Below, piece by piece: positions 36,227 to 41,094 of a stretch of DNA of 54,638 nt. This DNA is from Fibrobacter sp. UWR4 (GTDB lineage Bacteria; Fibrobacterota; Fibrobacteria; Fibrobacterales; Fibrobacteraceae), in NCBI RefSeq assembly GCF_003149045.1, contig NZ_QGDU01000027.1:1-54638 (forward strand). The letters run 5' to 3'. The number at the start of each line of letters is the position of its first letter. The first letter of the stretch is position 1. Both the position numbers and the translations under genes were made by a program. The notes under the pieces were generated by a model. It did not search any database. It was not told where the DNA came from and worked only from the letters and a program-made list of their open reading frames with translations.

Positions 36227-38056
36227 ATGGGAATGTTAAAGAGTTTTAAAGGCTCGGTTTCTGCCGTGGCCGTTGCAGCCTTTATCGCAGGCTTTGCTAC
36301 ACAATCTTTCGCTGTTACAAATCAGTTCCGTGGTACAAACTGGGCTGACAAACGCGATAACTTCGTTTCCGATGTGTTGAAACTTTCCGGTATGACTGGA
36401 ACTGAAGACTATCAGGCGGCCTATGCGCTGTCCGATCGCGTCATGAGCCAGTTTGTAGAAAAACTGGGCATCAACAGTTTGCGTATTCCTATTAACGAAC
36501 CTACGGCTTTAAAGGCCTGGAGTTCCTACAAGGGCATTATCGATGGCATCTTGGCTCATGGCCGTATGCTTATCGGTTACTGGGGCCCTGCACAGCCCGC
36601 TGGCCCCAAGAATATGGACGACTGGTGGAAAATGTGGGATACCGTTGTCAAGGAATACGGCAGCAATCCCGATGCCTACTTTGAAATCTTTAACGAACCC
36701 CACATGTACAGCAAGACTGAACTTCGCGACTTGTACGCAAAGTGGCTGGCTCGTTATCCGGATCTTCCCCGCGATCATGTTTTGCTGGATGGTTCCGGCT
36801 TGGCATGGAATGTGCCTGATATTGCCGACGACTCCCGCTTTGACGGCTGCCTTTTTGCAGTGCACGAATACACCTTCTGGAACATGAGTATTACCACCGA
36901 ACAGGGCTGGATGAACAGTTTCAAGGGCAAGGTGGGCAAGTATGCCGACCGCACCGTGGCAACCGAATGGGGTGGCGCCATGGGACCTGGTGACAAGAAC
37001 GGTGTCCATTACGAAATCATGGATTACAACGATCCCAATCCCACCAACTACTTCATGGCTTACATTCGCGGCATGTCCGAACAGCTGCGTCAATGGAAGA
37101 TGGGTAGCTTCTACTGGGTGGGCCTCCGCGATGGAGACTGGTACAGCATGGTGACCCGTTCTGGGGAAGGTGCCAACACCACCTTGAATATTGTGAATCA
37201 GTCCGGCGTAGATCGCATGCAGTATTCCTGGACCGATACGGTTGAAGTGAAGCCTGTTCCTCAGGAACCCTTCGGCGGTTATGATGCGTCTGGTGCTGCT
37301 GTCGCAGGCAAGGCCTGGGCAATTCCGGGTAAAATCGAGGCAGAAGATTTTGACATTCCGGGCGTTGGCAACGGTAACGATTCCTATAAGGATAGCGACA
37401 AGGAGAATCACGGCGATTCCGACTACCGCAAGGATACCGGCGTTGACCTGTACAAGAAACCCAATGACCGCGTTATCGTGGGCTACAATGCAGAAGGTGA
37501 ATGGCTGGAATACACGGTGAATGTTGCTGAAAACGGTGATTACACCATGTTTGCCGCGGTGGCATCTGCAAACAATACCTCCAGCTTCAAGCTCTCCATG
37601 GATGGCAAGGACATTACCGATACCATCAAGGTTCCCCAGGCTACTGCTGGCGAAGACAATTACGACGACTACAACAAGGTATCCGCCAACGTAACGCTAG
37701 AAGCCGGTGAACATGTACTGCGCTTCACGGTGACCGGCAGCTGGATGGACATCGACTACATCAACTTCGTGAAGGGTAAGGACGGCAAGGACGATGCTCC
37801 CATCGAAGGAAAGGAAGAAGTTGATCCGGTTCCCGTTGGTCCTTGCGACGACTGCGATGCAATTGGCCAGACTCTGGAATTGAACCGCGACATCGTCCAG
37901 AATTATCGCGTATTCTCTATGAGCGGAAAGCTTCTGGGAATGGTTCGCGGCAACGCTTTTGAATTGGCTGCCCGTACTCGCCAGCTGGTAAAGACCGACG
38001 GCATATTCATTGCAAAACCTGCAAAGGGTGCCGCAACGATTGTGAACTTGAAATAA
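36227..38056 (+). CDS. Secreted GH5 endo-glycanase with CBM6
   Basis: 609 residues. ATG 36227 follows GAGAGGAAAAT; the Met two codons on is an alternative. Signal peptide 1-29; GH5 (beta/alpha)8 domain about 32-345. Marks are GINSLRIPIN, acid/base Glu157 in YFEIFNEPHMY, AVHEYTFWN, and nucleophile Glu247 in TVATEWGGAMG. The subfamily is not clear by eye, so cellulase, xylanase or mannanase activity is open. CBM6 is about 365-520 (KIEAEDFDIPG), followed by a linker with CDDCD and a C-terminal paralogous module (YRVFSMSGKLLGMV to the end). It is the last gene of the island that shares the operator. Confidence 0.92.
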   Translation: MGMLKSFKGSVSAVAVAAFIAGFATQSFAVTNQFRGTNWADKRDNFVSDVLKLSGMTGTEDYQAAYALSDRVMSQFVEKLGINSLRIPINEPTALKAWSSYKGIIDGILAHGRMLIGYWGPAQPAGPKNMDDWWKMWDTVVKEYGSNPDAYFEIFNEPHMYSKTELRDLYAKWLARYPDLPRDHVLLDGSGLAWNVPDIADDSRFDGCLFAVHEYTFWNMSITTEQGWMNSFKGKVGKYADRTVATEWGGAMGPGDKNGVHYEIMDYNDPNPTNYFMAYIRGMSEQLRQWKMGSFYWVGLRDGDWYSMVTRSGEGANTTLNIVNQSGVDRMQYSWTDTVEVKPVPQEPFGGYDASGAAVAGKAWAIPGKIEAEDFDIPGVGNGNDSYKDSDKENHGDSDYRKDTGVDLYKKPNDRVIVGYNAEGEWLEYTVNVAENGDYTMFAAVASANNTSSFKLSMDGKDITDTIKVPQATAGEDNYDDYNKVSANVTLEAGEHVLRFTVTGSWMDIDYINFVKGKDGKDDAPIEGKEEVDPVPVGPCDDCDAIGQTLELNRDIVQNYRVFSMSGKLLGMVRGNAFELAARTRQLVKTDGIFIAKPAKGAATIVNLK

Positions 38057-38481: not shown

Positions 38482-40035
38482 ATGATGAAGAAAAGATTTT
38501 TTATAACTCTAGGTTTAATGTTAGGGACAGCTTCCGCTCAGTCCGCGAACGAAATTGTGGCTGAATCTGCAGGCGAGGCTGCACCCCAGTCCGCGTCCAT
38601 CTTCGTGCAGGATCCGGCGATTTTCCACCAGCGTCAAGCGGACTTGGAAAAGTTGAAGGCCTCCGTGGAGGGCAAGAACGAGGGGCTTGATTCCCTGCTG
38701 GAGCGGACCAACCGCATTACCGCCATGAACGACCGCTGTTCCTCCATCAGTATCAACGATGTGATGGATGACGAGTGCTGGACTTTCTATCGCGTTGAGT
38801 TGCCCGCCTTTGAGGAACAGTACATGAAGGTCTCCGGCGAGGTGCGGCTGGGCCACATGGAGACTGCCCGCGGTCTCGAGGATCGCAAGCTGCAGATCAA
38901 CGCCTGCGTGGATGCGCTTTACAGCTTCGCCCAGAGCAAGGACCAGTTCCTGAATCTGGAGGGCGGCGTGTTTCTGGAACCTCTCAGCGAAGGCTTCCAG
39001 GCCAACTACGATTTTACCCTGCAGTACGAACCCAACCATCGCAGGCATTCTTTTGAAATTGCCCAGAAATGGGGTGAGACCTGCCGCGAAATGGTGGTGC
39101 GTCAGGACGGCGAGGGCTTTGCTCCTTACTTCCTGGAACGCCTTGAAAGTTTAAATGCGGACCTTGCCGGCAATGGATCCCTGGCCGTCTATAAAACCGA
39201 CACTGCGGATGTCAACGCGCCCACGGTCTTCATGGATATCGCGAAGCCGGTGCGCAGCGCCTACTACCTGAATGGCGTCAAGCTGTTCCATGCCCGCGTC
39301 AGTGCTGGCCCCGCTGCAGAAAGCCCGGTGCAGATTCGTTTCGAGAAGGAGGCCGTGAAGGTCGCCGGCGAGCCTGTGGTCATCAAGCGCGGCGAACCCC
39401 AGAAGTTCAAGGGTTCCGTGCAGTTTGCCGAAAAGTCCGCCCGTCTGAACGGCCGCTGGATCTGGGAAAACCAGGGCAACAACGCCGGCGTGGATTTTGG
39501 CCCCGAGGAGGACGAGGCTGCGCTGGATAGCATCTATGCCGCGGAACAGGCCGCCAAGGCTGCGGAGGCTGCATCCGCTGTCGAGAACCGTCGTGGTGTT
39601 CATTTCTCTCCCTGGGTGGGTGTGTCCGCTGCGTTTGCTCCCTTCAGCGACAAGAACTACAAGGCTTTTGCTCTTGAAGAAGACCAGCTGATGATTCTGC
39701 CGGACCTGATTGCGGCGGCCCGCCTGCGAGTGGGCTTTGGCGATCAGGCTGAATTCCATGTGGCCTTCGGTGCGGGTGTCTATGTGGGCGCAGGTCTTGG
39801 CGACGGTCTGCAGCGCGTCTATTTTGCGCCTGTGGCCCAGCTGGAATTGGGCTACCTGGACTTCGGCCTTCGTGAGACCGCGGTTATCGCCATCCCGGAA
39901 AAGGATTCCGAGGAATGGATGCAGTTCAAGACCGGCGTGTTCTACAGCTTCGGCATGTTCGGCGTGGAAGCCGGCTTTGATGTGATTACAAACCTCGGCA
40001 ACGGCGGCTATGTCACGCTGTTCTGGAACCTGTAA
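38482..40035 (+). CDS. Exported protein of unknown function, first gene of the DGR-target operon
   Basis: 517 residues from ATG 38482 (a TTG-started extension of nine residues is unlikely). Signal peptide MMKKRFFITLGLMLGTASA. Residues about 25-215 are largely helical and charged, with three Cys. The middle is strand-rich. The last ~130 residues (from HFSPWVGVSAAFAPF) show alternating hydrophobic strands with Gly and aromatic ends (FHVAFGAGVYVGAGLG, FGVEAGFDV), finishing in LFWNL, which suggests an outer-membrane or surface beta-structure. No family is recognised. Two FISUMP lipoprotein genes follow at once, so it may help assemble or display them. This is inference from order. Confidence 0.78.
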   Translation: MMKKRFFITLGLMLGTASAQSANEIVAESAGEAAPQSASIFVQDPAIFHQRQADLEKLKASVEGKNEGLDSLLERTNRITAMNDRCSSISINDVMDDECWTFYRVELPAFEEQYMKVSGEVRLGHMETARGLEDRKLQINACVDALYSFAQSKDQFLNLEGGVFLEPLSEGFQANYDFTLQYEPNHRRHSFEIAQKWGETCREMVVRQDGEGFAPYFLERLESLNADLAGNGSLAVYKTDTADVNAPTVFMDIAKPVRSAYYLNGVKLFHARVSAGPAAESPVQIRFEKEAVKVAGEPVVIKRGEPQKFKGSVQFAEKSARLNGRWIWENQGNNAGVDFGPEEDEAALDSIYAAEQAAKAAEAASAVENRRGVHFSPWVGVSAAFAPFSDKNYKAFALEEDQLMILPDLIAAARLRVGFGDQAEFHVAFGAGVYVGAGLGDGLQRVYFAPVAQLELGYLDFGLRETAVIAIPEKDSEEWMQFKTGVFYSFGMFGVEAGFDVITNLGNGGYVTLFWNL

Positions 40036-40098
40036 GGGGGAGGATTGAAAATGAACAATGAAAAATTAACAATGAATAATTTTTTGAAAGTAATCTCC

Positions 40099-40212
40099 CG
40101 TGTCATTCTGAGCTCTTTCCCTCGTGTCATTCTGAGCGAAGCGAAGAATCTAGGAGTTCATTCCATGGCCGCTTTCTCTCACGTCATTCCCGGCTTGACC
40201 GGGAATCTAGCG
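40099..40212. repeat. Dispersed palindromic repeats inside a lipoprotein leader
   Basis: There are two GTCATTCTGAGC-type units (from 40099 and 40122), the second continuing as GAAGCGAAGAATCTAGG. A third unit at 40181-40212 has arms ATTCCCGG / CCGGGAAT. They are of the dispersed extragenic kind, yet here they supply the Shine-Dalgarno region and part of the signal peptide of the gene at 40165. A further unit, GTCATTCCGAGCGGTAGCGA, lies at 40360-40379 within the Ser-rich linker. Confidence 0.75.
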
Positions 40213-41094
40213 GTCCTCTCCGTGGCCACTCTCCTGCTCGCCTCCTGTTCCGTCTATGACAACTACGACATCGACCTGATGCAGGACGCCACCGCAAGCA
40301 TAGATTCCAGCAGTTCCTCCTCCGAATCCGTCGAGGGGACCGGCAATTCTTCCTCCTCCGTCATTCCGAGCGGTAGCGAGGAATCCAGTAGCAGCAAAAA
40401 AGATACCACCTATGTGGTAATCGTCAATCCGTCCAGCTCCTCGCAGAAGGTCGAATCCGCAGGCAGCTCCGCGGTTGATAATCCCGGCAGTTCCTCCTCC
40501 AAGGTCCCCGAGCCCGCCGAAGAATCCAGTTCCAGCGAAGCGGGGTTCCCCTGTGGCGATTCCACGATGACCCGCGGCGGTGTGGAATACGAAACCGTCA
40601 GAATCGGTAAGCTCTGTTGGACTGCGGAAAACCTGCGCTACAAGGATGCCATTCCCGAAAAGAACTACACCTGTTCCCTGGACGATGATCCTGATTGCGC
40701 CACCTACGGCCTGATGTACAACTTTGCTGGTGCTAAGGAAGTCTGCCCCGATGGCTGGCGCTTGCCCACAAAGACCGACCTGGACAATCTTCACGACTAC
40801 CTGAAAAAGGCAACCTCCGAACTGGCCGGCAACTGGCTCAAGTCTGAGAATGGCTGGAGCGGCGAGCCGGGAAACGGTTCCAACAAGGCGAAGTTCAACG
40901 GCCTTCCCGCGGGTTATTGCGATGAGGACGCCGAATGCGAAATGATGGGAAAACTCGGCTTCTGGTGGACCTCCGAAGAATCCAGCATTGATTTCAGATA
41001 TGTCCTGAAACTGTCCGGCAATTCCGACGAATGGTTCAACAACGAAGAACTTGACGAAATATACTACGCCTCTGTCCGCTGCGTAAGGGAGTAA
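40165..41094 (+). CDS. FISUMP-domain lipoprotein with repeat-derived leader
   Basis: 309 residues from ATG 40165, which has AGGAG nine bases upstream. An in-frame ATG at 40045 would give a 349-residue form whose extra N-terminus is just translated repeat DNA. The signal peptide ends in LLLASC (Cys28 of the short form). Residues about 40-125 are Ser-rich linker (SSSSS, ESSSSKKD), part of it translated from another repeat copy. Residues about 132-309 are a FISUMP domain: RIGKLCWTAENLRY, CPDGWRLPT, GFWWTSEES, ending YASVRCVRE. It lies 3 bp before the DGR target gene and is surely co-transcribed. Its C-terminus does not match the template repeat. Confidence 0.85.
   Translation: MAAFSHVIPGLTGNLAVLSVATLLLASCSVYDNYDIDLMQDATASIDSSSSSSESVEGTGNSSSSVIPSGSEESSSSKKDTTYVVIVNPSSSSQKVESAGSSAVDNPGSSSSKVPEPAEESSSSEAGFPCGDSTMTRGGVEYETVRIGKLCWTAENLRYKDAIPEKNYTCSLDDDPDCATYGLMYNFAGAKEVCPDGWRLPTKTDLDNLHDYLKKATSELAGNWLKSENGWSGEPGNGSNKAKFNGLPAGYCDEDAECEMMGKLGFWWTSEESSIDFRYVLKLSGNSDEWFNNEELDEIYYASVRCVRE

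Follow-up and report, generated by a model that had tools for sequence, protein, structure and literature searches.

REPs that carry a CGTC tag form a superfamily of dispersed palindromes with no dedicated transposase; as described by Di Nocera et al. (2013; PMC3733652), a stem of 8–9 bp in which A-T pairs come first encloses a loop of 4–5 nucleotides, and the tail that follows is mostly CCA. According to the same source, intragenic CGTC REPs lie in frame in Rickettsia and other genera, DNA-repair genes included, and in-frame palindromes are also known in other genera among the GTAG REPs. The Rickettsia palindromic elements (RPE; Ogata et al., 2000, 2002) are dispersed palindromes that are translated in frame within functional genes, and RPE-4 and RPE-6 have been described as CGTC repeats (PMC3733652; PMC2229807). 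In Yersinia, the YPAL/RU-2 element (Delihas; PMC2229807) is about 168 bp long, has a hydrophobic-rich translation of 56 residues and forms a predicted signal peptide, with one such locus named.

The DNA analysed here, referred to as the window, is a whole stretch of 54,638 nucleotides from Fibrobacter sp. UWR4 (contig NZ_QGDU01000027.1), in which short palindromic units are found in the reading frame of a lipoprotein gene. Like CGTC-tagged REPs as described in PMC3733652, these units have a CGTC or TGTC tag and no transposase linked to them at the loci read, and they agree in part in their short stem-loop with A-T pairs first and their CCA-like tail; two of the three full units end in CTA, and units of the GAGCG type have an internal GA/GA mismatch in place of an unbroken stem. 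Fibrobacter is absent from the main text of that paper, and we found there no description of a concentration in export leaders and Ser linkers such as is seen in Fibrobacter. The resemblance to RPEs, as PMC3733652 and PMC2229807 present them, is that the units lie in frame in real genes of which homologues without the insert exist. RPEs, however, include several kinds of 105–146 bp and are found in conserved housekeeping proteins, whereas the Fibrobacter units are of about 25 nt and fall in exported, disordered segments; the contrast is a partial one, as core enzymes of Fibrobacter carry units too. With YPAL/RU-2, going by the account in PMC2229807, they share the property of being small dispersed repeats that contribute to a predicted export signal, but the 25-nt Fibrobacter units give the n-region and the start of the hydrophobic core in several gene families.

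Protein-coding REPs, in-frame palindromes in Rickettsia and a repeat-derived predicted signal peptide in Yersinia are thus already on record; what is new is the lineage, together with the way units concentrate in export leaders and Ser linkers, their bias in strand and length, and the pairs of near relatives with and without units. No report of translated palindromes in Fibrobacter was found in the open-access literature, in a search that covered few subscription journals. It is an old question whether new protein segments can come from non-coding repeats, and where such segments are tolerated, and the evidence has come largely from Rickettsia. To this the Fibrobacter lineage adds many recent cases in which close relatives differ; the proteins concerned are exported, and the effect on export or on linker length can be measured in them.

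The host gene and its start site

All repeat pieces of the window lie in one gene, the features of which are listed below; G011, G036 and G040 denote other genomes, and C9 is a paralogous locus in the window's own genome.

38485..40035, + strand: upstream gene P0002, the locus marker in G011, G036, G040 and C9
40036..40044, + strand: ribosome-binding site GGGGGAGGA, 5' of all units, with equivalents at G011, G036, G040 and C9
40051..41094, + strand: lipoprotein gene, an open frame whose start is backed by alignment with four homologous loci
40051..40245, + strand: extended leader of 65 codons ahead of the putative lipobox Cys (40246-40248), from the LLASC motif in the sequence
40102..40113, + strand: 5' half unit GTCATTCTGAGC, read VILS (core match)
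40126..40150, + strand: full unit GTCATTCTGAGCGAAGCGAAGAATC, tail CTAG, read VILSEAKNL (pattern match)
40183..40207, + strand: full unit GTCATTCCCGGCTTGACCGGGAATC, tail CTAGC, read VIPGLTGNLA (pattern match and fold)
40360..40385, + strand: full 26-nt unit GTCATTCCGAGCGGTAGCGAGGAATC, tail CCA, read VIPSGSEES amid the Ser blocks of the linker (pattern match)
40570..41088, + strand: FISUMP domain (TIGR02145 / PF09603), from domain profile matches

A single open frame runs from ATG 40051 through every unit to the stop at 41094; the encoded protein has a leader that ends in LLASC, followed by a Ser-rich linker and, at the C terminus, a FISUMP domain (TIGR02145, 121.6 bits against a cut-off of 41.65, E 5.8e-35; PF09603, E 1.1e-28). 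The host protein is a clear member of the FISUMP (Fib_succ_major) family and a predicted lipoprotein, the lipid-modified Cys being that of LLASC, which we take to be a lipobox. The window's genome has 96 FISUMP domain matches, most of them in genes without a unit. P0002 (38485..40035) gave no match in Pfam or NCBIfam.

Just 3' of the P0002 stop, a GGGGAGG(A)-type site followed by an in-frame ATG is found in the window, G011, G036 and G040, and C9 has GGAGG and then ATG at the same place. The sole in-frame start that C9 possesses ahead of its lipobox is 5' of its unit, and the C9 unit must therefore be coding. From this alignment, the most likely start of the lipoprotein gene is ATG 40051, ahead of the units, the alternative being the internal ATG at 40165. 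The original prediction had the repeat itself supply the ribosome-binding site, which is at odds with a shared site (40036-40044) and ATG that both lie upstream of the units. Were translation to begin at 40165 instead, 40102-40150 would be an untranslated 5' leader giving AGGAG (40152-40156), with the units at 40183 and 40360 still coding; AGGAG is placed 8 nt 5' of ATG 40165, the same arrangement is seen in G011, and the resulting leader of 27 codons would be of normal length. We nevertheless consider this unlikely, since the upstream site and ATG 40051 are common to G011, G036, G040 and C9, the frame is open throughout, and the unit of C9 can only be coding. A second start inside the gene, at 40165, may make use of the AGGAG with which the repeat ends. 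Codon changes in the leader stretch 40102-40164 (two synonymous, two non-synonymous) are too few to prove coding constraint.

Two further features of the window were noted. The first codons of the gene (40051-40086), like those of the leaders at L066 and L067, are of low complexity, AATGAAC.AATTAACAATG or AATTATGAATTACGAATT (MNNEKLTMNN, MNYELRIM); this leader start has matches elsewhere in the genus and is possibly another dispersed leader repeat. Many diverged direct repeats occupy 12490-38056, the largest family having seven copies of 117 nt; at least one of these repeats is within the open reading frame at 36227-38056, and they are probably domains common to neighbouring genes.

Repeat pieces in the window

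The repeat sequences originally reported for the 5' region of the lipoprotein gene were all recovered there, GTCATTCTGAGCGAAGCGAA at 40126, GTCATTCCCGGCTTGACCGG at 40183 and CTAGGAG at 40150. The four pieces, at 40102, 40126, 40183 and 40360, are confined to the 5' third of the gene. The 12-base core GTCATTCYNRGC has four matches in the 54,638 bases of the window, every one inside this gene (mean 0.11, maximum 2 in 100 shuffles), and both full-unit patterns match once in the window and never in shuffles.

The tags of the full units are, in order, TGTC, CGTC and CGTC, and the tails are CTA at 40126 and 40183 and CCA at 40360. Unit 40183 has a stem of 8 bp and a loop of 5; units 40126 and 40360 form 5 + 2 pairs round an internal mismatch, with loops of 3 and 4, respectively. 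RNA folding gave -12.2 kcal/mol for unit 40183 (z -3.1 against shuffles) and a weaker result for unit 40360 (z -2.3), while unit 40126 folded no better than its own shuffles (z -0.3). A half unit about 10 nt 5' of a full unit was seen in four leaders (window 40102-40150; L004, L023, L090), and 6 of the 39 CTGA-type units in the window's genome have a half unit at most 40 nt upstream.

A dispersed palindromic family in the genome

Across the window's genome, the pattern GTCATTC-N6-24-GAATC has 61 matches, against 4 for a reversed control, and GTCATCC-N6-24-GGATC has 53, against none in the control. Distinct units with matching stems, read in context, number 93, a count limited to stems in which 7 or more of the outer 10 positions pair; it leaves out weaker stems (the C60 linker, UvrA, RlmL-like), stemless matches and five pattern places (C24:36067, C38:1934, C70:1880, C26:8200, C38:19419). 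GTC is preceded by C or T in 82 of these units, and GAATC is followed by CA in 52 and by TA in 18 (70 of 93 together). The majority of the 93 lie outside genes, as called by codon scores, which are rough. The repeat pieces of the window belong to a dispersed family of palindromes, probably of the CGTC-tagged REP type: the same units recur elsewhere in the genome and the genus, many of them outside genes, and several different stems, both arms matched in each, are found in the same frame. Codons AGC and TCC favour strings of this kind, and the likeness might be thought that of Ser- and hydrophobic-rich coding sequence which happens to be palindromic; such a coincidence has practically no chance of being the explanation, given the absence of full patterns from shuffles, the identical units elsewhere and the different matched stems in one frame, and it is already refuted because dispersed copies lie outside genes.

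Genes of the Y1_Tnp family are present in 20 of the 61 genomes. At the 12 loci read, no 25- or 26-nt unit lies within about 1.5 kb of Y1_Tnp, one locus having a 35-nt unit of another kind, and linkage of the units to a RAYT-type transposase is not supported by these loci.

Units in Ser-rich linkers

A genome scan for in-frame units in Ser-rich linkers, proposed with the original prediction, placed 16 of the 93 units in Ser-rich frames (12 or more Ser among the 40 residues that flank the unit), compared with 0.204% of the 107,962 coding positions of a 400-kb sample; the comparison is mildly biased towards this result, since units could use any open frame of at least 100 codons and the null scored coding frames only. 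All 16 are on the sense strand, and 14 of them have a length of 26 or 29 nt, as do 6 of the 77 other units (Fisher's exact test, P = 2.7e-10; P = 9.1e-8 with paralogues merged by judgement, 9 against 1). By coordinates, eleven FISUMP genes have an in-frame unit (C1, C5, C9, C16, C27, C29, C34, C49, C56, C72 and C75), and unit-bearing Ser linkers, some with imperfect stems, are found in seven other genomes (G010, G030, G034, G037, G038, G040 and G051). When 84,980 species were scanned for a Ser-flanked 26-nt unit, with a pattern that itself demanded two TCN codons 5' of the unit, the frame was strongly Ser-rich (at least 18 Ser of 40) at 9 of 10 Fibrobacter sites and at none of 73 other sites, among the 80 of 108 stretches listed. 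Genome G045 has at least 405 pattern matches (3 in the control), a figure several times that of the window's genome, and none of the 23 units examined there is in a Ser linker, so the linker habit is not general in the genus.

Several simpler accounts of the linker units were rejected. One took the 26-nt unit for a specialised coding form of an intergenic unit of 25 nt, but 26-nt units are common among the G045 matches listed and are found outside Ser-rich frames in other phyla; what is left of that idea is the excess of 26- and 29-nt units in linkers. Another had a single linker unit spreading across the genus, but GTCATTCCGAGCGNNAGCGAGGAATC, with at most one mismatch, is found in only 2 of the 61 genomes, at four places, and the linker units are therefore of several kinds. 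A strand bias along the G045 contig, looked for among the matches listed, was dropped.

Read with its tail, the linker unit gives V-I-P/L-x-x-x-x-E-S-S; the 26-nt class plus one base makes 27 nt, and the tail TC[C/T]AGC encodes Ser-Ser, which lets the unit sit amid Ser blocks without a shift. The Ser-rich reading of the unit had been put forward as a possible explanation of how the poly-Ser linkers of this lineage originate, and repeated insertion could be argued from the S-x-S-E-E-S-S that unit and tail spell out and from the 16 of 93 units in Ser-rich frames. Such an origin is very improbable, however: the same SSSS blocks are already present in the unit-free homologues G036 and C9, and within the small 400-kb sample none of five Ser-linker ORFs has a unit inside its linker, one of the five having a unit in its leader. 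Because poly-Ser blocks occur without units, the units appear to join linkers rather than create them, and of the Ser-rich reading it is the role of spacer between Ser blocks that stands, and not that of source.

Units in export leaders

Units were also found in the leaders of the C9, C16, C31 and C5 lipoproteins of the window's genome. A search of the genus for the CTAGC-tailed unit, allowing one mismatch, gave matches in 11 of 61 genomes, and among the 30 loci listed nine are unit-bearing leaders (three in the window's genome and one each in G011, G040, G036, G009, G025 and G024), those of G011 and G024 looking like ordinary and not lipoprotein signals. With its CTAGC tail, the unit reads R/S-V-I-L-S-x-A-K-N/D-L-A in leaders. 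The C16 leader MKNSFPSVILSVAKNLAMLSIAAIMLIAC, which has the unit, and that of its paralogue C52, MNIFKNLAMLSIAAVMFVAC, which lacks it, form a further pair of this kind. In the G024 leader (L356), what appears to be a second kind of repeat (VIASVATQSK) lies 5' of VILSAAKDL.

The same locus in relatives

Over the last 400 residues of P0002, identity to the window is 99.5% in G036, 98.8% in G011 and 84.5% in G040. The leader downstream is more variable: 25 codons precede the lipobox Cys in both G036 and G040, 34 in C9, 53 in G011 and 65 in the window, and G011 has all of the units, whereas the leaders of G036 and the more distant G040 are short and unit-free. As G036, with its near-identical P0002, and the distant G040 share this short leader, the leader units look recently gained, and a gain in the line of the window and G011 would be the simpler reading. 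Compared with C9, the window and G011 have an extra in-frame segment of 57 nt between two AATCTAG copies, which brings unit 40183; part of their leader resembles that of C9 and may be derived from such a paralogue. The unit-free allele in each leader family retains one end of the unit, which makes recombination or deletion as possible as a clean insertion.

At the linker position, VIPSGSEES is found in the window, G011 and G040, and VKNDD or VKKDD in G036 and C9. The linker unit is older than the leader units, being present in G040 and absent from G036. A Fibrobacter sp. record (L195) has an identical linker unit in the same linker, and the G040 unit differs from that of the window at 2 of 26 bases, both changes silent, leaving VIPSGSEES unchanged. 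The comparison with orthologues lacking the insert, suggested at the outset, thus yielded leaders without units in G036 and G040, linkers without units in G036 and C9, and the C52 leader set against that of C16; with loci of both kinds in hand, and other genes built alike, the central proposal that dispersed palindromes have turned into a lipoprotein leader and linker is borne out.

These alleles also bear on whether the units are kept for a hairpin function in RNA or DNA, for example in mRNA stability, with their translation incidental. Two of the three units do fold better than shuffles, and a role as RNA elements has been proposed for REPs elsewhere (PMC3733652). We regard such a function as quite improbable for this gene, as unit 40126 folds no better than shuffles, the leader units are absent from near relatives, the two changes in the G040 linker unit are silent, and the strand and length bias in linkers favours the peptide.

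Beyond the linker, the FISUMP domain of G036 shares 90.6% identity with its C9 counterpart and 32% with the domain in the window. At the DNA level, the window gene matches C9 over query positions 349-498, and its match to G036 stops at 498, short of the domain. It seems that linker and domain were exchanged at this locus, and homology switches at the poly-Ser linker. The G036 domain pattern at the same locus is as if the poly-Ser linker were a recombination hinge for domain swapping (window; L066; L068).

A possible origin of the in-frame units

We think it likely that the units are palindromes of the CGTC-tagged REP type translated within the lipoprotein, and that their present distribution reflects spread, selection, in-frame retention in leaders and linkers, and copying between paralogues. 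The starting points are direct observations: units in frame, a near relative free of leader units, other genes alike, and the bias of linker units in strand and length. Some activity would have spread the units over the genome, although no insertion or movement was observed, and insertions into genes would mostly have been purged by selection, as is suggested by most units lying outside genes. The units kept would be the in-frame ones of export leaders and disordered Ser linkers; both tolerate extra residues, which would be harmless or useful there, and the units would persist for this reason. In a leader, unit and CTAGC tail would give a Lys-bearing stretch leading into the hydrophobic core, and in a linker, unit and tail would act as a spacer between Ser blocks. 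Once inside, units may also have been copied between paralogues along with linker DNA, and they may have entered or been lost by recombination at short homologies, or by deletion, besides clean insertion.

A broader scheme, which we put forward tentatively and consider possible rather than probable, is that the CGTC-type palindromes of Fibrobacter are portable protein modules, one frame with its CTAGC tail giving an export leader (VILSxAK[N/D]LA) and another length class giving a Ser-linker spacer (VI[P/L]xxxxESS), and that the palindromes and repeated poly-Ser linker DNA jointly form recombination hinges by which leaders and FISUMP domains are swapped between paralogues and species. For annotation, VILSEAKNL, VIPGLTGNL and RHSERSEES are to be read as translated repeats and not as protein motifs, and they can shift start-site calls.

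Units in core enzymes

By family match, in-frame units were also found in UvrA, an EF-G-like protein (two units), MnmE, an RlmL-like methyltransferase, an aminotransferase and a glycosyltransferase, and antisense units in the genes for RsmG and a DEAD helicase. The core-enzyme loci with units in the window's genome are L115, L012, L121, L081, L106, L071, L002 and L082. MnmE-like proteins of two species (L352 of G040 and L121 of the window's genome) have units that differ from each other, in what seems to be a similar position ahead of DLVLYTKAD or DLILQTKAD.
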